From Leifsonia sp. CL147 (GTDB lineage Bacteria > Actinomycetota > Actinomycetes > Actinomycetales > Microbacteriaceae): a stretch of 64,000 bases of DNA. Location: positions 156,674 through 220,673 of the forward strand of contig NZ_FOTM01000003.1 of the NCBI RefSeq assembly GCF_900114565.1, given 5' to 3'. The notes under the pieces are model-generated. The model was not told the origin of the DNA and searched no databases. It saw only the letters and a list, made by a program, of their open reading frames with translations. The stretch's first letter is position 1, and the number at the start of each line of letters is the position of its first letter. The position numbers were made by a program, and so were the translations under genes. This document shows positions 55,160 through 63,081 of this stretch, piece by piece.

Positions 55160-55424
55160 TGTGCTGCTCCCTGGACCTGACCCTGCGCCTTCGGCTGTGT
55201 GCCGGCTCGCACGTTCACCCGCTAGATAGACGCGAATCGTGACATCTGCCGCCGACTGGTCGACGACACTGAAGCCCACGCACGGTTCACGAAAATCGCC
55301 ATCTGCATATCCTCGCATCAGGCGACGAATTCGTAGTCACCGCGGTTGTCCGGCGCATGACAGAACGTCTGCAAAAGGCACGGCCTCGGGCACGTCTGCA
55401 TCCGTCCTTCGCTGACCGGATCGG
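55160..55424. other. Non-coding gap, moderately AT-rich
   Basis: The stretch between the divergent ROK and septum-formation-like genes holds no convincing gene. TAGATAGACG near 55223-55232 could be part of the ROK promoter; nothing else was identified. Confidence 0.4.
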
Positions 55425-55430
55425 TAGGGT
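55425..55430 (+). promoter_or_regulatory. -10 box (TAGGGT) of the orphan membrane protein gene
   Basis: TAGGGT ends seven bases before ATG 55438. This argues against the in-frame start 81 bp upstream. Confidence 0.5.
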
Positions 55431-55437
55431 CTATCTC

Positions 55438-56679
55438 ATGAGTAGGCACCATCCGTCGCGTGGCGGTTCTCGAGCGTTGCGGACAGTCGTCGGCTCTCTC
55501 CTCGCAGGCGCAGCACTGGTCCTGCTCTCTGGTTTCGCATCCGGCGGCGGCTCGACGGACGCGCCTGGTTCGACACCCGGTCATCAGGTCCCCTGGGACG
55601 GGGTGAAGGTCGGAATGTGCTCGGACATCGGTTCGGGGAGTGTGCCGGACAGGGTGACGGTTCTTGACTGTGAGCAAGCGCATCGTGGCGAGTTCTATTG
55701 GGTCGGTTCACTCCCGGCCGGTCCATTTCCGGGCGACTCGGGCGCTCGCGCTGCAATGACGAAGATATGCAGCACGCACCTCCCACCAGGTCCGATCGGC
55801 TGGTTCACCTCTTTCAGTCCCAGCGAGACGGCGTGGGCGGTCGGCAATCGCCAGGGATACTGTCTTGCTTCAACAGAGCACCAAGAGCCCTACACGGGTT
55901 CGCTGGCCTCGCTCTGGATCGCTCCGTGGGTACCGCTCTATTGGGGAGACGGGGCGCTCGCTCTTGCGATGGTCGCAACGTATCTTGTGAGTGGCGCGCG
56001 ACTCTGGCGGATGGCTCCCACGAGCAGCACTCGAGCGGCTTGGATCCGTGAACTGTGGTGGTTCGTTCTTCCGGCGGTTGGAATCGTTTCAGCCGTTGTG
56101 TTTCCGAATGGCAAACGAACGTACTCGGCGCAGTCTGCACTGCCGTTTCCGGTTTCGATGACACTCTGGTTCTCGACGATGGCCGTCATCGCGACAGCAC
56201 TCCTCATTGTTCGGGCAATGAGCATGGGACGGCTCGTACGCGCCGCGAAGTCGCACCCGGAGGCTCTGGTGCTGGAGGGTGTGCGGTTGAACCTGACTGT
56301 GGCGCGGCTGCGAATGCTCGTAGATGACGGCGTGCGGACAGGCGGGCACAGGGGCACGAACCTGAAGCTGCCGTTCTGGTTTCCGCTCGTCATCACCGGC
56401 GGCGCGATCCTGATCACGACGAACGATGGGAAGACGATCACGCTCGAGCGAGAAAACATTCAGACCATAACCACCGAGTTCACCTCCGTCGACGTCGGCT
56501 CTGGCCACACGCGGTCGGCCTCCCTCATCGACATCGCGCTCAACGACCCGGAGCTCGTCATTCCACTTGCGGTCCGCTCCACCCGGTGGAACGCGTTCTT
56601 CCGGCTCACCGCGAACGCCAAAGACACTGCCATAGTGCGGAAGGAGCTCGCCGAACGCTTGGATCCCGTTCGCCTCTGA
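55438..56679 (+). CDS. Orphan membrane protein with septum-formation-like extracellular domain
   Basis: A 413-residue protein. An N-terminal hydrophobic segment (TVVGSLLAGAALVLLSGFAS) precedes an exported domain with VKVGMCSDIGSGSVPDRVTV followed by L-D-C-E-Q-A-H-R-G-E-F and C-S-T-H-L, the Cys/His pattern of the septum-formation (PF13845-like) family. Then come three hydrophobic segments (LALAMVATYLVSGARLW, WWFVLPAVGIVSAVVF, STMAVIATALLIVRAMSMG) and a cytosolic beta-rich C-terminus (ILITTNDGKTITLERENIQT) that looks like a PH/GRAM-type module. Codon use is noticeably less GC-biased than its neighbours, and it lies next to a tRNA gene, both of which fit recent acquisition. Function unknown. Confidence 0.7.
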   Translation: MSRHHPSRGGSRALRTVVGSLLAGAALVLLSGFASGGGSTDAPGSTPGHQVPWDGVKVGMCSDIGSGSVPDRVTVLDCEQAHRGEFYWVGSLPAGPFPGDSGARAAMTKICSTHLPPGPIGWFTSFSPSETAWAVGNRQGYCLASTEHQEPYTGSLASLWIAPWVPLYWGDGALALAMVATYLVSGARLWRMAPTSSTRAAWIRELWWFVLPAVGIVSAVVFPNGKRTYSAQSALPFPVSMTLWFSTMAVIATALLIVRAMSMGRLVRAAKSHPEALVLEGVRLNLTVARLRMLVDDGVRTGGHRGTNLKLPFWFPLVITGGAILITTNDGKTITLERENIQTITTEFTSVDVGSGHTRSASLIDIALNDPELVIPLAVRSTRWNAFFRLTANAKDTAIVRKELAERLDPVRL

Positions 56680-56853: not shown

Positions 56854-56930
56854 TGGTTGCGGGGGCAGGATTTGAACCTACGACCTCTGGGTTATGAGCC
56901 CAGCGAGCTACCGAGCTGCTCCACCCCGCG
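56854..56930 (-). tRNA. tRNA-Met (CAT), initiator type
   Basis: The minus strand folds as a complete 77-nt tRNA including an encoded CCA. The acceptor stem is CGCGGGG/CCCCGCA with the C1-A72 mismatch of initiators, the D arm is GAGC/GCTC, the anticodon stem is CTGGG-CTCATAA-CCCAG with the three G-C pairs typical of tRNA-fMet, and the T arm is GTAGG-TTCAAAT-CCTGC. A -10 box lies just upstream and a U-rich terminator downstream. Confidence 0.95.
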
Positions 56931-57049: not shown

Positions 57050-58132
57050 ATGGCGAGTGCCGTGACGAAGTACCGGGTTGTCGTGGTCGAGGACGACCCG
57101 GATGTGGCCTTCTTCATGAAGACCATCCTGGAGAAGCGGGCCGACGCCGTCGCCCTGGCGGTCACGGATCCGTCGGTCGCTCTCGCCGAGATCGCCGCAT
57201 TCGAACCCGACCTCGTCATCACGGACATCGAGATGCCGGGGAAGTCCGGTCTCGAGCTGCTGACGGAGCTGCGCACCGAGTATCCCGGGATGCCGGTGGT
57301 CGTCATGACCGCCCATGTCTCGGTCGACTACGCGGTGTCGGCGCTGCGGGCGCAGGCGGACGAGTTCCTCACCAAGCCGGTGGCCTCGGCGGAGCTGGTG
57401 GCGATCGTGAACCGCCTGGCCGCCGAAGGGCGCGTGAAGCGCGCGGCCCAGCGGCAGCAGGTCGTGCTCGCGATCGGTGCGCATCCGGACGATGTGGAGA
57501 TCGGCGTCGGCGGCATCCTCGCGGCGCACCGCGAGGCCGGCAACCAGGTGGTCATCCTCACGCTCTCGCGAGGCGCACGCGGCGGCGATGCCAACAACCG
57601 TCAGCATGAATCGCTCGCCTCGGCGGAGCTCCTGGGCGCGCGGCTGTTCCTGGAGGACCTCGAGGACACGCACATCTCGGCCGCCGACCCGACCGTCGGG
57701 ATCATCGAGCGCGTGGTCGCCGAGGTGCAGCCGGACATCGTCTACACGCACTCGTCGCACGACCGGCATCAGGACCATCGCGCCGTCCACGCCGCCACGA
57801 ACGTCGCGACCCGCTCGGTCCGCACGGTCTGCTGCTTCCAGAGCCCGTCGGCCACGATCGACTTCCGCCCGACCCGGTTCGTCCCGATCGACGGGTTCAC
57901 CGAGAGCAAGCTCCAGCTCCTCGACTGCTTCCGGTCCCAGACCGAGCTGCGGACGTACCTGGAGCCGGACTTCGTGCTCGCGACCGCGCGCTACTGGTCG
58001 CGGTTCGGCGGCGGCAAGAACTGCGAGCCGCTGGAGGTGATGCGGGACACCGCGGACATCTCGATCCCCGCATCCGCCCTTCCGGCGGAGGCACGCCCGG
58101 CCGCATACCGACAGAACAGGACCGCCGAATGA
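57050..58132 (+). CDS. Response-regulator receiver fused to a PIG-L (LmbE) deacetylase
   Basis: A 360-residue two-domain protein. Residues 8-125 form a REC domain: acidic pair E14/D15 (VVVVEDDPDVAFFM), phospho-acceptor Asp59 in LVITDIEMPGKSG, Thr87 and Lys109 in FLTKPV. Residues ~137-330 are a PIG-L zinc hydrolase of the type that deacetylates N-acetylglucosamine conjugates (MshB, PIG-L): the AIGAHPDDVEIGVGG loop gives His145, Asp147, Asp148, and SSHDRHQDHRAVHAAT gives His240, Asp242, His243. There is no DNA-binding domain, so phosphorylation would control enzyme activity. The start is ATG at 57050 with GGGGA upstream. The stop overlaps the ATP-grasp start (ATGA). Confidence 0.92.
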   Translation: MASAVTKYRVVVVEDDPDVAFFMKTILEKRADAVALAVTDPSVALAEIAAFEPDLVITDIEMPGKSGLELLTELRTEYPGMPVVVMTAHVSVDYAVSALRAQADEFLTKPVASAELVAIVNRLAAEGRVKRAAQRQQVVLAIGAHPDDVEIGVGGILAAHREAGNQVVILTLSRGARGGDANNRQHESLASAELLGARLFLEDLEDTHISAADPTVGIIERVVAEVQPDIVYTHSSHDRHQDHRAVHAATNVATRSVRTVCCFQSPSATIDFRPTRFVPIDGFTESKLQLLDCFRSQTELRTYLEPDFVLATARYWSRFGGGKNCEPLEVMRDTADISIPASALPAEARPAAYRQNRTAE

Positions 58133-59139
58133 CCGACTCCAGAACCCGCGTGCTGGTGACCGGCGCAGGCGGCCCCGCCGGCGTCGCCGTCATCCGTTCC
58201 CTGCTGGCCCGCGACGACGTCGACGTGTTCGCGGCCGACATGGACGGCTGGGCCAGCGGGCTGTATCTGGTACCCGAGGACCGTCGCCGGATCGTTCCGG
58301 CGGGACGCTCCGACGGGTTCGTGGATGCGCTGATCGGGATGTGCCGGGACGACGCCATCCAGGTCCTGTTCTCCACGGTCGATGTCGAGCTCCCCGGGCT
58401 CGCGGCCCGCCGGACGGAGCTGGAGGCGGTCGGGACACAACTGGCCGCGCCGTCCCACGACACGCTGGTGACGTGCCTGGACAAGTTCGCCCTGGTCCAG
58501 CGGGTCGGCAGCCGGGCCGCCGTGCCCGAGACGCGGCTGCTGAACCGCGAAGGCGCCGGCGCCGACTGGACGTTCCCCGTCATCATCAAGCCGCGCAGCG
58601 GCGCAGGGTCGCGCGGCGTGCGCCTGATCGCGGACCGCGGCGAGCTGGAGGCGCTCGGCACGGACGAGAGCATCATCATCCAGGAGAACCTCCCGGGGGA
58701 GGAGTTCTCGGTGGATGTGCTCGCGGGCCTCGACGGCGAGGTCATCGCCGCGGTCCCGCGCTCCCGCGAGCGGGTCGACTCGGGGGTCTCGATCGCCGGA
58801 CGCACCGTGCGCCGGCCGGAGCTCTCGGACACAGCTGCCGCCGTCGCGCGCGCCATCGGACTGACCGGCGTGGCGAACGTCCAGCTGCGTTACAGCGCGG
58901 CCGGAATCCCCGCCCTGCTGGAGGTCAACCCGCGCTTCCCGGGCGCGATGCCGCTCACGATCGCCGCGGGCGTCGACATGCCGTCGCTGCTGCTGGATCT
59001 GGTCCTCGGCCGTCCCGTCCCTTCCGCTGTCGACTTCGCCGAGCTCGCCAACGTCCGCTTCCTGGAGGACGTCTTCCTCAGCCCCGCCGACGTGCTCGTC
59101 TCCGAGAACGCGGCGCACGCCGAGGGTTTCGAGGAGTGA
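58129..59139 (+). CDS. ATP-grasp carboxylate-amine ligase
   Basis: A 336-residue ATP-grasp enzyme. The N-terminal pre-ATP-grasp Rossmann-like domain has RVLVTGAGGPAGVAVIRSLL; the ATP-grasp fold follows with FPVIIKPRSGAGSRGVRLI, IIIQENLPGEEFSVDVLAGL and the metal-binding LLEVNPRFPGAMPLTIAAG. The layout is that of the carbamoyl-phosphate-synthase-like ligases that join a carboxylate (via acyl phosphate) to an amine. Substrates are unknown; with the upstream deacetylase it could couple a carboxylate to a newly freed amino group (inference). It overlaps its neighbours by 4 bp on each side, indicating coupled translation. Confidence 0.88.
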   Translation: MTDSRTRVLVTGAGGPAGVAVIRSLLARDDVDVFAADMDGWASGLYLVPEDRRRIVPAGRSDGFVDALIGMCRDDAIQVLFSTVDVELPGLAARRTELEAVGTQLAAPSHDTLVTCLDKFALVQRVGSRAAVPETRLLNREGAGADWTFPVIIKPRSGAGSRGVRLIADRGELEALGTDESIIIQENLPGEEFSVDVLAGLDGEVIAAVPRSRERVDSGVSIAGRTVRRPELSDTAAAVARAIGLTGVANVQLRYSAAGIPALLEVNPRFPGAMPLTIAAGVDMPSLLLDLVLGRPVPSAVDFAELANVRFLEDVFLSPADVLVSENAAHAEGFEE

Positions 59140-59909
59140 GCGCGACGGGAGCCGACCGGCTCTCCTCCGTCCTGCGGGGCGACCACCACGTCCACTCCAC
59201 CTTCTCGGACGACGCCCGCAGCACGCTGGCGGAGAACATCGCCGCCGCGTCCGCCGCGGGCCTCGAGACGGTACGCCTGACGGACCACGTGCGGGCGTCC
59301 ACGACCTGGGTGCCCGAGTTCGTCGCGGCCGTGGCCGCCGAGCGCATCCCGGACGGTCTCACTGTCTTGACCGGCGTCGAGGCGAAGCTGCTGGATGCGG
59401 CGGGCTCCGTCGACCTACCCGAGGGCTTGGTGGTCGGTCGCGGAGGTGTCGATGCGGTCGTCATCGGCGACCATCAGTTCCCCGGGGTCGACGGTCCCTG
59501 GTCGCCGACCATGACGCGCGAACGTCTGGCGGCGGGGCTCTCCGAGGATGACGCGCTCGACCTGATGATCGAGGCGAGCATCCGGGCGATGGAGCGAACT
59601 CCGCACGCGCAGCTGGCGCACTGGTTCTCGATCCTGCCGAAGGTCGGGCTCGACGAATCCCAGCTGGGCGCCCAGCGCCTGCTCGCCTGGGCACAGGCCG
59701 CAGCCGCGACCGGCACGATCGTCGAGGTGAACGAGAAGTGGGACTGCCCGGGCCCTGAGGCCATCGCCGCTCTCCTGGTGGCAGGTGCGCGTATCGTTGC
59801 CTCAACGGACAGCCACGTCGCCGCGGACGTCGGGCGCTATGAGCGAGTTCCGGCGTTGCTCGAAGCCGGCGCCCGTGCGGCGGCCGGAGAAACGGAGGAG
59901 GCACGATGA
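59136..59909 (+). CDS. PHP-domain hydrolase
   Basis: A 257-residue polymerase-and-histidinol-phosphatase (PHP) family enzyme. Metal ligands are in place: RGDHHVHSTFSDDARSTLAE (H-x-H), VRLTDHVRAS (Asp-His), LTGVEAKLLDAAG (Glu), VVIGDHQFPG (His), LAHWFSILPK (His) and RIVASTDSHVAADVGRYE (Asp-x-His). The set fits histidinol-phosphatase-like phosphoesterases, but the histidine pathway is not encoded here. Its presence between an ATP-grasp ligase and a two-component system suggests removal of a phosphate from a pathway intermediate (inference). The start is GTG at 59136, overlapping the ATP-grasp stop. Confidence 0.87.
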   Translation: MSATGADRLSSVLRGDHHVHSTFSDDARSTLAENIAAASAAGLETVRLTDHVRASTTWVPEFVAAVAAERIPDGLTVLTGVEAKLLDAAGSVDLPEGLVVGRGGVDAVVIGDHQFPGVDGPWSPTMTRERLAAGLSEDDALDLMIEASIRAMERTPHAQLAHWFSILPKVGLDESQLGAQRLLAWAQAAAATGTIVEVNEKWDCPGPEAIAALLVAGARIVASTDSHVAADVGRYERVPALLEAGARAAAGETEEAR

Positions 59910-60064
59910 GCCCCGTCGAACCGCCGGACGCGCTGCGTGAGCGCATCGAGGAGGAGCTGGAGCGGGACCGCCGCTGGGAGTTCCGGCTGCCGCTCTTCGG
60001 CGGCATCGCGATCCTGATCTGCGCGGCGATCGTCGTCGTCCGGGTGGTGTTCCTGCATGTCTGA
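59906..60064 (+). CDS. 52-residue single-TM protein in the signalling operon
   Basis: A short gene wedged between the PHP and response-regulator genes, overlapping both (4 bp and 8 bp). It encodes a charged N-terminal helix (ALRERIEEELERDRRWEFR) and one hydrophobic helix (IAILICAAIVVVRVVFL) ending H-V. Conserved overlaps on both sides indicate real translation. It could tether a partner to the membrane or act on the histidine kinase; nothing in the sequence decides this. Confidence 0.75.
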   Translation: MSPVEPPDALRERIEEELERDRRWEFRLPLFGGIAILICAAIVVVRVVFLHV

Positions 60065-60473
60065 TCAGGCGGACCGCACCCGGCGCGTGGTGATCGCGGA
60101 TGACGACGACGACATCCGTGGACTGATGACCATCGCAGCGAAGCGTGCGGGTGTAGAGATCGTCGCCGCCGTCGACAACGGCCACGCAGCGCTCGAAGCC
60201 GTCCGCCGCGGCGGTGTCGACCTGGTGGTCCTGGACATCTCGATGCCCGGGCTCAACGGTGTGGAGGTGGCCGAGGCGATGCGCGCCGATGAGCGAACGC
60301 TGCCCACGCTCATCCTGATGGTGTCGGCATCCGTGCAGCTGCTCACCGACCACGGCGTGGTCGCCGAACGGGCGGACAGCTTCCTGGTGAAGCCCTTCAG
60401 CCCGCGGGCACTGTCCACCCGCATCCGGGAGATGCTGCAGCTGGATGCGCAGCGGGTGGAGGAGTCCGCATGA
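60057..60473 (+). CDS. Single-domain response regulator
   Basis: A 138-residue stand-alone REC domain. The acidic cluster VVIADDDDDIRGLM, phospho-acceptor Asp60 in LVVLDISMPGLNGVEVAEAM, Ser in MVSASVQ and Lys in FLVKPFSPRAL are all present. There is no output domain. It may be a phosphate sink, a shuttle to the REC-PIG-L protein, or act by protein contact. The start is ATG at 60057, inside the small TM gene. The stop overlaps the kinase start. Confidence 0.92.
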   Translation: MSDQADRTRRVVIADDDDDIRGLMTIAAKRAGVEIVAAVDNGHAALEAVRRGGVDLVVLDISMPGLNGVEVAEAMRADERTLPTLILMVSASVQLLTDHGVVAERADSFLVKPFSPRALSTRIREMLQLDAQRVEESA

Positions 60474-62248
60474 CGCTCGACCGGTGGCTCAGCCGCATCC
60501 CCATCGATTCCCCGTCGCCGTTCATGAAGCAGCTGCCGACCATCGTCGGCTTCGCGATCGCCGTCCTGATCGCCCTGGTGCCGAACGAGATCCCCGTCGA
60601 CAGCGGGCTGCTCTTCGCCATCGGAAGCGCTGTGGTCGTCGTGGCGTCGATCTTCTCCTTCGTCATTCCGTGGAGCCGGTTCCACCCGCAGTGGGCGGTG
60701 CTCGTGCCGATCCTGTCGCTGCTGGCGATCGGGCTGCTCCGGATCGCGACCGGGGGATCCTCCTCGCCGTTCGGGGTGCTCATCCTGCTTCCGTTCGTCT
60801 GGATCGCGTCCGAAGAGGGGCGGACCAACATCCTGCTCGCCGTGCTCATGATCCTGATCGTGCTGGTGGCGCCGCTGCTCTTCAGCGGGCTCGCGAATTC
60901 GGGGGCGGACATCGTCCGCGCCTTCTTCGCTCCGGTCATCTACTGCCTCGTCGCGATCGTCATCAACGAGATCGCCCACCGGATGCGGACCCAGCTGGCC
61001 GCGGCGCGCGAGTCGAACGAGAAGCAGGAGACGCTCCTGTCCCAGGCGGTCACGGCCCAGGACGAGCTGGTGCTGAAGGAGGCGCGGCTCAAGACGGCCA
61101 ACCGCCTCATCCAGAGCATCTGGAACGCCGTCACCGAGCAGTCCGTGATCGGCACCGACCTTGACGGCCTCATCGACGTCTGGAATCCGGGCGCGGAGAA
61201 GATGCTCGGCCTCACCGAGAAACAGGTTCTCGACGGCCATCACCATGTGACCGAATTCCACCTGCCGTCCGAGCTCGCGCAGCGGATCGAGGACATGGAT
61301 GCGCGGTTCACCACCGTTGCCAGCAGCGACGAGTTCTCGGCGCTGGTGGACACGGTTCGCGCCGGTTCCGCCGACGTCCGCGACTGGACCTACGTCCGCC
61401 CCGACGGCAAGCAGGTCGCGGTCCAGGTCGCGGCCACGCCACGACTCGACGAGAACGGCCACCGCGTCGGCTTCATCTTCGTCGCGACGGACATGACCCA
61501 GGCCCGCGAGTTCGCCCGGCTGAAGGACGAGTTCGTCGGGCTCATCTCGCACGAGCTGCGCACGCCGCTCAGCTCGATCCTCGGCTACCTGGAGCTGATG
61601 CGCGACGACGAGGACGCTCCGCTGTCGGAGGAGCAGCTGCAGTACCTGAGCGTCGCAGAGCGCAACGCCCACCGGCTCCTCCGCCTCGTGGGCGACCTGC
61701 TGTTCACCGCGCAGGTGGAGTCCGGCCGCTTCCCCCTCGAGATCAAGGACGTGGAGCTCGACAGCGTCGTCTCCGCCTCCATCGAGTCCGCGCGGCCGAT
61801 CGCCCGCAACGCCGGCGTGACCCTGGTGAGCGACGTGCCCGAGCAGCGTCTCGACGTGCGCGGCGACCCCGTGCGCCTGGGCCAAGCGGTCGACAACCTC
61901 GTCTCCAACGCCCTCAAGTTCACCCCGGCCGGCGGGACCGTGACCGTTTCCTTGCGGCCCGACGGCCCGCAAGCGGTGATCGCCGTGACGGACACCGGGA
62001 TCGGGATTCCGGCGGTCGAGCTCGGCCGGCTCTCGCAGCGCTTCTTCCGCGCCTCCACGGCGACCCGCAATGCGGTTCCGGGCGTGGGGCTCGGCCTCAC
62101 GATCACGAAGGCCATCGTGACCGCGCACGGCGGCCGCCTCGACATCGCCAGCGAGGAGGGCGTCGGCACCTCCATCAGCATCGTCCTGCCGGTGGAGACG
62201 CCCCAGCCGGTGACCGAAGCGCTTCCGCAGGCGGAGCTGGCGCCGTGA
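60470..62248 (+). CDS. Membrane PAS-containing sensor histidine kinase
   Basis: A 592-residue kinase. Five to six hydrophobic helices occupy residues ~20-170 (VGFAIAVLIALVPNE, LLFAIGSAVVVVASIFSFVI, WAVLVPILSLLAIGLL, LLAVLMILIVLVAPLLFSG), then a coiled coil, a PAS domain (~215-330; GTDLDGLIDVWNPGAEKMLG), HisKA with His361 in LISHELRTPLSSILGYLELM, and HATPase (DNLVSNALKFTPAGGTVTVS, VTDTGIGIPAVEL, GVGLGLTITKAIVTAHGG). The likely partners are Asp60 of the upstream regulator and Asp59 of the REC-PIG-L enzyme. The start is ATG at 60470, overlapping the regulator stop. The signal is unknown. Confidence 0.93.
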   Translation: MTLDRWLSRIPIDSPSPFMKQLPTIVGFAIAVLIALVPNEIPVDSGLLFAIGSAVVVVASIFSFVIPWSRFHPQWAVLVPILSLLAIGLLRIATGGSSSPFGVLILLPFVWIASEEGRTNILLAVLMILIVLVAPLLFSGLANSGADIVRAFFAPVIYCLVAIVINEIAHRMRTQLAAARESNEKQETLLSQAVTAQDELVLKEARLKTANRLIQSIWNAVTEQSVIGTDLDGLIDVWNPGAEKMLGLTEKQVLDGHHHVTEFHLPSELAQRIEDMDARFTTVASSDEFSALVDTVRAGSADVRDWTYVRPDGKQVAVQVAATPRLDENGHRVGFIFVATDMTQAREFARLKDEFVGLISHELRTPLSSILGYLELMRDDEDAPLSEEQLQYLSVAERNAHRLLRLVGDLLFTAQVESGRFPLEIKDVELDSVVSASIESARPIARNAGVTLVSDVPEQRLDVRGDPVRLGQAVDNLVSNALKFTPAGGTVTVSLRPDGPQAVIAVTDTGIGIPAVELGRLSQRFFRASTATRNAVPGVGLGLTITKAIVTAHGGRLDIASEEGVGTSISIVLPVETPQPVTEALPQAELAP

Positions 62249-63081
62249 CCGACCGGCCGGCGGAGCTGACGATCGACGACCGCACGGTCGCCGTCGCCGT
62301 GGCGCAGTTCGCTCCCGGGGAGGACCGCATCCACAACCGGGATGTGGTGGCCGGCCTGATCGCGGTCGGCGCCTCCCGGGGCGCACGGCTGGTGGTCCTT
62401 CCGGAGTACTCGTCGTACTTCACCGATCCGCTCGGGCCCTCGTTCGCCCGCAACGCCGAGACGCTCGACGGCGACTTCGTCACCGCGCTGGCCGCGACGG
62501 CGCAGGAGCATCAGGTGTTCGCCGTGGCGGGGCTGGTGGAGCGGACGGACGCGCCGCGCAAGTTCTCGAACACGCTGGTCGCGGTGGCGCCCTCCGGGGA
62601 CGTGGTGGCGACGTACCGTAAGCAGCATCTCTACGACGCGTTCGGGGCGCAGGAGTCCGAGTGGGTCGTCCCGGGCGACCTGGACGAGCCGCAGACGTTC
62701 GAGGTGGACGGGATCGTCGTCGGGCTGCAGACCTGCTACGACCTGCGCTTCCCGGAAGTCACGCGCCGTCTCGCCGATGCAGGGGCCGACCTCGTGGCGG
62801 TGCCGGCCGAGTGGGTGCGCGGACCGCTGAAGGAGTTCCACTGGACCACTCTGCTGGCGGCCCGTGCGATCGAGAACACGCTGTACGTCGCGGCAGCCGA
62901 CCATCCGCCGGCGATCGGCGTCGGCGCGAGCGCCATCGTCGACCCGATGGGCGTCACCATCGCCGGCCTCGCCGACACGACGGGCGTCGCGGTCGCCGAA
63001 GTCTCGAGCGCCCGCGTGCGGTCCGTGCGCGACCGGAATCCGGCGCTGCGCCTGCGTCGCTACCGCGTCACCCCTCTGTAG
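62245..63081 (+). CDS. Nitrilase-superfamily amidase (omega-amidase / Nit type)
   Basis: A 278-residue C-N hydrolase with the complete catalytic triad: Glu54 (LVVLPEYSSYF), Lys126 (TYRKQHLYDAFGAQES) and Cys164 (VGLQTCYDLRFPEVTR). The motifs are closest to Nit1/Nit2-type amidases acting on 2-oxo-amides such as alpha-ketoglutaramate or deaminated glutathione. The start is GTG at 62245, overlapping the kinase stop by 4 bp, so it is the seventh coupled gene of the operon. An aminotransferase ends 14 bp away on the other strand; transaminase plus omega-amidase is a known pairing (glutaminase II pathway). Confidence 0.9.
   Translation: MTDRPAELTIDDRTVAVAVAQFAPGEDRIHNRDVVAGLIAVGASRGARLVVLPEYSSYFTDPLGPSFARNAETLDGDFVTALAATAQEHQVFAVAGLVERTDAPRKFSNTLVAVAPSGDVVATYRKQHLYDAFGAQESEWVVPGDLDEPQTFEVDGIVVGLQTCYDLRFPEVTRRLADAGADLVAVPAEWVRGPLKEFHWTTLLAARAIENTLYVAAADHPPAIGVGASAIVDPMGVTIAGLADTTGVAVAEVSSARVRSVRDRNPALRLRRYRVTPL

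Follow-up and report, generated by a model that had tools for sequence, protein, structure and literature searches.

A receiver-fused PIG-L deacetylase as a candidate link between a two-component system and an amino-sugar glycan pathway in Leifsonia and other bacteria

Introduction

Which process is controlled by a sensor kinase whose operon encodes two receivers and no DNA-binding output? The question is raised by a seven-gene operon of the soil actinobacterium Leifsonia sp. CL147 (assembly GCF_900114565.1, contig NZ_FOTM01000003.1), located in a stretch of 64,000 nt (positions 156,674-220,673, forward strand) that was analysed as a whole and is called the window below. Its first gene (g1) encodes a receiver (REC) fused to a PIG-L (LmbE/GlcNAc de-N-acetylase) domain, GlcNAc being N-acetylglucosamine. 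The other six (g2-g7) encode an ATP-grasp ligase, a PHP-family protein, a small transmembrane (TM) protein, a single-domain receiver, a PAS histidine kinase and a Nit-type amidase. A preliminary description of this DNA had proposed that the kinase gates, by phosphorylating the deacetylase, a pathway that makes or edits an amino-sugar or amide conjugate.

Most two-component systems act via transcription. In the present case the signal appears to end on a metabolic enzyme, one that belongs to a glycan pathway. We consider it moderately probable that the two-component system uses the receiver-fused de-N-acetylase to gate the synthesis of an amino-sugar glycan, at whose core stands a family 2 glycosyltransferase (GT2) resembling hyaluronan and poly-N-acetylglucosamine (PNAG) synthases. 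The operon is probably one half of a glycan-synthesis system, the part that regulates and modifies, with a surface or secreted glycan as the product.

Results

The receiver of g1 displayed a complete pocket, in which the phosphoacceptor D59 is accompanied by E14, D15, T87 and K109. The PIG-L part holds its full catalytic set (H145, D147, D148, H240, D242 and H243); these residues make up the AHPDD and HxDH metal/catalytic motifs of the family. When 17 REC-PIG-L sequences were aligned, the window's included, D15, D59, K109, H145, D147, D148, D242 and H243 were invariant, and T87 and H240 were found in at least 90% of the sequences. Position 14 is E or D at most loci. A score of 85.1 bits against the Pfam PIG-L profile (threshold 28.2) places the protein in this family, and with Foldseek its PIG-L part matched 2ixd, 1uan, BshB and chitobiose deacetylase folds. 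An assignment to the bacillithiol deacetylase BshB1 was rejected, the score being 81.2 bits against a curated cutoff of 182.5. Both domains were folded in the AlphaFold2 model (predicted local distance difference test score 88.4); the predicted template modelling score was 0.66, which leaves it uncertain how the receiver sits with respect to the active site. With a complete pocket and a kinase (g6) in its own operon, g1 corresponds to a response regulator with an enzymatic output. It is presumably cytosolic, since it carries the fused receiver.

The gene set was followed in relatives. Among 150 genomes of the window's family, 28 had a match to the PIG-L half at E ≤ 1e-20, and in 25 of them it was of the REC-PIG-L type (including G107, with a decayed receiver). 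In 14 of these 25 genomes the REC-PIG-L, ATP-grasp and PHP genes stand in the window's order; the other 11 have neither ATP-grasp nor PHP, and a linked kinase is kept in nine of the 11. At class level, full-length queries revealed REC-PIG-L in 12 of 394 genomes (15 matches, three of them PIG-L only), and at phylum level it was found in 3 of 396 (five matches, two PIG-L only), the own genome being counted in each case. Named genomes were surveyed by a pattern-seeded scan, from which the best 80 loci were taken. On the actinomycetotal side, fused loci among these 80 came from Leifsonia, Microbacterium, Cellulomonas, Blastococcus, Promicromonospora, Ilumatobacteraceae, Solirubrobacterales and Thermoleophilia, among others; elsewhere they came from Myxococcales, Legionella rowbothamii, L. 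drozanskii, Marinicella, Burkholderiales and Rhodospirillales, among others. The fusions span Actinomycetota, Alpha- and Gammaproteobacteria and Myxococcales. Among the loci kept from the best 80, the closest named relative of the window was Leifsonia virtsii, whose best REC-PIG-L segment is 91% identical. When the classes to which a Burkholderiales genome and a Rhodospirillales genome belong were scanned, 368 and 288 other genomes gave no further fusion, with at most 5-7 candidates scored per genome, and such fusions seem to be rare in Proteobacteria.

The order REC-PIG-L / ATP-grasp / PHP recurs across many genera, which argues against chance as the origin of the operon arrangement. The preliminary description had made recurrence in several genera the test of a functional unit, and scattering in relatives its disproof; the three genes were found together in many genera. 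The position of the kinase varies: it lies downstream of the GT2 gene in Microbacteriaceae and Cellulomonas loci, upstream together with a receiver at L093, L103 and L134, and immediately 3' of REC-PIG-L at L051-L053, L088, L089 and L091. Given this variety, the association is not tied to a single layout passed on by descent. A tetratricopeptide repeat (TPR) protein is part of the cluster at eight of the nine proteobacterial loci, while the contig of the ninth ends early; in one proteobacterial relative it partly matches PgaA (86.6 bits, cutoff 366.65).

Three loci of the survey showed features of their own. In a Marinicella metagenome-assembled genome (L133:9-2224), a gene for an H-NOX protein, which binds haem and NO (HNOB 1e-31), and a hybrid histidine kinase gene are divergent from the REC-PIG-L/ATP-grasp/GT2/TPR cluster, which suggests a nitric-oxide or oxygen input at that locus. 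At L055 (G022), four related histidine kinases and three more receivers stand in tandem, about 0.7-9.1 kb after the PIG-L start. In G1589 a second REC-PIG-L copy is found in three overlapping pieces at a contig start (G1589:C1:423-1497), the intact copy lying near the other end; the fragmented copy is possibly a contig-end assembly artefact.

Across the 150 family genomes, a membrane GT2 of about 500 aa was present in exactly the 14 that hold REC-PIG-L, ATP-grasp and PHP. Its gene lies between the PHP gene and the small TM/receiver genes in 11 of them. The other three, which represent the window's genus in this set (the window's genome, G055 and G125), do not have GT2 in the operon; the window's genome carries it unlinked (G000:C9:7505-8998), and for this reason it was missed by the preliminary description. 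In 23 sequences, among them the own GT2, the DxD, ED and QxxRW motif residues were invariant, and the TM region is synthase-like. The fold matches hyaluronan and cellulose synthases, with 378 residues aligned to hyaluronan synthase. The protein has the motifs and TM channel of processive membrane GT2 synthases, polymerisation itself being predicted. Because the central partner is of this processive type, a glycan is a more likely product than a soluble small molecule. An amino-sugar or amide pathway, as first proposed, is still the best guess from the combination of PIG-L and ATP-grasp.

The GT2 of a relative (L041) had PgaC_IcaA as its best NCBIfam match. Scored on this relative and not on the own GT2, the PNAG synthase PgaC/IcaA was rejected as an identity (128.2 bits against a cutoff of 422.3). 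The C-terminal tail W-x-K-T-x-K-x-G was invariant in 23/23 aligned GT2 sequences from Actinomycetota and Proteobacteria. Directly 3' of the own unlinked GT2, on the same strand, lies a chorismate-mutase-like gene recognised by eye (L068:7505-9360, C9), and at L126 two GT2 synthase genes stand in tandem, 2.6-5.6 kb after the PIG-L start.

The wiring of kinase and pathway was compared at 78 distinct fused loci, drawn partly from the best 80 of the scan, with hidden Markov models (HMMs) built for this analysis; genes within 7 kb were counted as linked, and the GT2 of L046 and L049 was located by tblastn and HMM. Duplicates (L107, L125, L146 and L150) were merged before the count. The 78 leave out 35 of the best 80 scan loci, taken to have no fused receiver (L151-L185), further loci of the same kind from the family, class and phylum searches (L062-L065, L095-L097, L104 and L105) and L148, which is cut by the start of its contig. 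Kept were L061, with a decayed receiver, and L147 and L149, in which the receiver is poor or absent. The four of the 35 with the earliest-starting or odd-looking matches were inspected: L168 has a hydrophobic N-terminal part, and L174, L180 and L184 have no N-terminal domain.

Linked genes at the 78 loci were a kinase (62), ATP-grasp (60), GT2 (53) and PHP (46). The receiver pocket was intact at all 62 loci with a linked kinase and at 7 of the 16 without one (Fisher 6e-8, relatedness ignored). Similarly, the PIG-L catalytic set was intact in 60/60 cases with a linked ATP-grasp and in 8/18 without (Fisher 3e-8, relatedness ignored). When losses were counted as irreversible, 4/4 pocket losses fell on kinase-absent branches (roughly 22.8% of branch length) and 8/8 active-site losses on ATP-grasp-absent branches (roughly 24.2%). 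As cross-controls, pocket losses on ATP-grasp-absent branches were 1/4 and active-site losses on kinase-absent branches 0/8. A minimum-change reconstruction, with regains allowed, gave 3/3 and 4/4, with cross-controls of 1/3 and 0/4. The losses are paired, pocket with kinase and active site with pathway. Moreover, REC-PIG-L was the only receiver within 7 kb at 13 of the 62 kinase-linked loci, some of whose contigs end sooner, so that another receiver could lie beyond. The sole receiver at these 13 loci and a pocket lost only where no kinase is linked support the view that the kinase acts on the fused deacetylase. The gating claimed in the preliminary description is in this way supported by comparison, not by experiment.

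Two groups of altered proteins were observed. At L053, L054, L056-L058, L060, L094, L124 and L132, an intact pocket and a linked kinase go with altered PIG-L residues and no linked ATP-grasp; judged by their residues, these nine may be pseudo-enzymes that are still kinase-controlled. In Legionella and Alphaproteobacteria (L135, L140 and L142-L145), the acidic-pair or lysine residues of the receiver are lost and no kinase is linked; these are probably pseudo-receivers.

The operon genes, all on the + strand, occupy 57050-63081 and overlap successively by 4, 4, 4, 8, 4 and 4 bp (Table 1). Coordinates and Pfam calls (E ≤ 0.01) agree with the preliminary description in the seven overlapping genes and their domains, and its tally for the window's locus (two receivers, a single kinase, no DNA-binding output) is correct: no DNA-binding domain was found among the seven proteins by Pfam at this threshold. 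With NCBIfam, the best match shown for any of the seven stayed below its curated cutoff.

Table 1. The operon of Leifsonia sp. CL147 and features 5' of it (positions in the window)
Feature	Position	Strand	Length and start codon	Assignment
440-aa open frame	55357-56679	+	440 aa	5' of operon; no Pfam match at 0.001
tRNA-Met (CAT)	56854-56930	-		shortly 5' of operon
g1	57050-58132	+	360 aa, ATG	Response_reg 1.3e-28 (REC, residues 10-120) + PIG-L 7.4e-24 (output, residues 140-252) (Pfam)
g2	58129-59139	+	336 aa, ATG	ATPgrasp_Ter 4.9e-32 (Pfam)
g3	59136-59909	+	257 aa, GTG (presumed start)	PHP 1.5e-9 (Pfam)
g4	59906-60064	+	52 aa, ATG	no Pfam match; one hydrophobic segment, residues 34-52 (simple hydropathy)
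g5	60057-60473	+	138 aa, ATG	single-domain receiver, Response_reg 2.4e-22 (Pfam)
g6	60470-62248	+	592 aa, ATG	PAS_9 8.5e-11 + HisKA 6.7e-20 + HATPase_c 1.8e-27 (Pfam)
g7	62245-63081	+	278 aa, GTG	Nit-type amidase, CN_hydrolase 6.1e-45 (Pfam)

The g2 protein is an ATP-grasp ligase with a PylC-like N domain (PF15632, 110.9 bits against a gathering score of 29.1). Its closest solved sequences were 2pn1 (2.6e-25) and then PylC (9.1e-5), and K154, E265, N267 and R269 were kept in at least 95% of 61 loci. The closest solved sequence to g3 was YcdX (3.2e-7); g3 is probably a YcdX-like PHP-family metallohydrolase acting as a phosphatase. Its residues H18, H20, D25, H51, E82, H113, H162, D225 and H227 were kept in at least 95% of 48 loci. 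At six of the nine proteobacterial loci a histidine phosphatase (family checked for two) adjoins ATP-grasp, in the slot of PHP in Actinomycetota, and this replacement suggests that PHP works as a phosphatase. A histidinol phosphatase of the HisJ-type PHP subfamily was rejected for g3 (31.4 bits, curated cutoff 90.2).

By position, g4 matches the small TM protein 3' of GT2 in relatives, the similarity being weak. As counterparts of g5, relatives have 0-3 receivers within 7 kb besides the fused one. The g6 kinase is a membrane PAS histidine kinase with five hydrophobic segments in its first 230 residues. For g7, deaminated glutathione amidase was rejected (NCBIfam, 234.4 bits against 355). The preliminary description had included the amidase in the unit, and this part was not upheld: only 19 of the 78 loci have a Nit gene nearby, on the upstream side in 10 cases and on the downstream side in 9, so that in relatives it swaps sides or is missing. 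Since its position shifts, g7 was judged to be a neighbour outside the core unit.

Discussion

PIG-L enzymes release amines from GlcNAc compounds, and ATP-grasp enzymes build amide-type bonds. In the mechanism proposed here, the membrane kinase g6 would autophosphorylate on some cue and hand the phosphate to D59 of g1, switching the deacetylase activity. The PIG-L domain would then deacetylate an N-acetyl-hexosamine unit used or made by the membrane GT2, which, as a synthase of the hyaluronan/PNAG/cellulose type, is expected to make the chain. The freed amine would probably receive an acyl or aminoacyl group from g2, while g3 may strip phosphate from a pathway intermediate. The g4 protein may aid the synthase or help it to assemble in the membrane, and g5, the receiver that stands alone, probably serves as a phosphate buffer or relay.

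Several observations weigh against this mechanism. The compared genomes are related; the tree-aware pairs all point in the same direction and are too few for significance, so that tree-aware support for the wiring is directional but weak, and the branch fractions are rough. The pocket is intact with no linked kinase at L049, L059, L087, L131, L137, L139 and L141, of which L087, L131 and L139 are near contig ends and L141 has a kinase 9 kb away, beyond the 7-kb limit. One member of the genus has GT2 with no REC-PIG-L. Furthermore, 16 of 17 genomes that have REC-PIG-L and no linked ATP-grasp have no GT2 anywhere; the kinase is nevertheless retained in most of these ATP-grasp-less genomes, and the active site is intact in some, so that REC-PIG-L can have another role. 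Finally, UDP-GlcNAc 2-epimerase was found in 0/79 fused loci. Among 44 unfused PIG-L loci, nine combine this epimerase (WecB, above cutoff in the two scanned) with PIG-L, GT2 and ATP-grasp, which points to UDP-N-acetylhexosamine substrates.

The same gating could serve a small molecule or glycolipid: GT2 would attach a single sugar to a small acceptor or a lipid, and deacetylation by PIG-L and addition of an acid by ATP-grasp would follow; in the mycothiol and bacillithiol pathways, too, deacetylation comes before ligation. The PIG-L domain is nearest to BshB-type deacetylases, whose substrates are small GlcNAc compounds. Among solved structures, the fold nearest to that of GT2 belongs to the mannosyltransferase PcManGT and not to a polymerase, which is also a point against a polymer; the MftF and HpnI families match as well. 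We regard this reading as rather unlikely, given the QxxRW motif of GT2, its synthase-like TM region with the long alignment to hyaluronan synthase, and the TPR proteins of the proteobacterial loci, which an intracellular small molecule would not need.

Another view would leave the deacetylase ungated: the kinase would act mainly via g5 and partners elsewhere, and the PIG-L receiver would be only a phosphate sink or scaffold. A second receiver is indeed found within 7 kb at 49 of the 62 kinase-linked loci, and in some lineages whose PIG-L is broken and whose genomes lack GT2, receiver and kinase are still retained. At the other 13 loci, however, there is no other receiver within that distance; pocket loss tracks the absence of the kinase and not of the pathway, and the active site is intact wherever ATP-grasp is linked. 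A pure sink or scaffold is therefore unlikely. Ordinary packing of unrelated housekeeping enzymes would explain the presence of Nit and of the adjacent aminotransferase, both of which are such neighbours, and g4 and g5 do vary. For g1-g3, g6 and GT2 it is contradicted by an order and composition kept across actinobacterial families and classes and partly in Proteobacteria, and by a GT2 that tracks the gene set even when unlinked; as an account of the whole cluster, packing is very improbable.

Kinase gating of a glycan pathway is hence the reading that we prefer. If it is true, a sensor kinase controls an amino-sugar glycan, at the cell surface or secreted, by a post-translational route that is independent of cyclic di-GMP (c-di-GMP), and the prediction is that phosphorylation of D59 alters deacetylation. 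Loci that have naturally lost pocket, kinase, active site or pathway offer a ready comparative test set. A broader picture is offered tentatively, as a possibility that we hold to be somewhat doubtful: in several phyla a kinase would directly switch a cytosolic de-N-acetylase which, together with ATP-grasp, exchanges the N-acyl group of an amino sugar and so decides the product of a hyaluronan/PNAG-like synthase. This would be a phosphorylation-switched counterpart of c-di-GMP-controlled polysaccharide secretion, and in some lineages that have lost the synthase the deacetylase would decay to a dead, kinase-wired domain.

The preliminary description knew of no described system with this gene set. 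In the open-licence full-text literature searched, judged by titles and abstract openings, no description of a receiver-PIG-L protein or of the gene set was recognised, which is consistent with that statement; novelty is provisional. PNAG synthase systems are controlled by c-di-GMP. The operon resembles PgaABCD/IcaADBC in a GT2 with PgaC_IcaA as best match, a small TM protein, the partly PgaA-like TPR protein of a proteobacterial relative and the presence of a deacetylase. It differs in that the GT2 and TPR scores of relatives are below the cutoffs, the deacetylase is of the PIG-L type and presumably cytosolic, ATP-grasp and PHP are additional, and control is apparently by two-component phosphorylation instead of c-di-GMP. 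With BshB and MshB, g1 shares the PIG-L fold and motifs, whereas its fused receiver, its GT2 and ATP-grasp partners and a BshB1 score below the cutoff set it apart. The g2 protein resembles the ATP-grasp of Ter-associated biosynthetic operons (PF15632) and PylC in its match to the PF15632 profile, and differs in its partners, which here are REC-PIG-L, PHP and GT2.

CheB-type regulators likewise carry a receiver on an enzyme, and PDB 1a2o was among the structure matches of g1. The nearest precedent is the REC fused to a BcsA-like GT2 (PF13641) in Methanobacteriaceae (PMC5847659). There, too, a receiver sits on an enzyme, and that GT2 belongs to the same Pfam family as the partner GT2 in the present system; in the system described here the receiver is on PIG-L, a kinase and ATP-grasp/PHP are adjacent, and several bacterial phyla are involved. 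Taken with these known systems, the REC-PIG-L system looks like a variant of enzymatic-output two-component signalling that is tied to a synthase-dependent glycan pathway.

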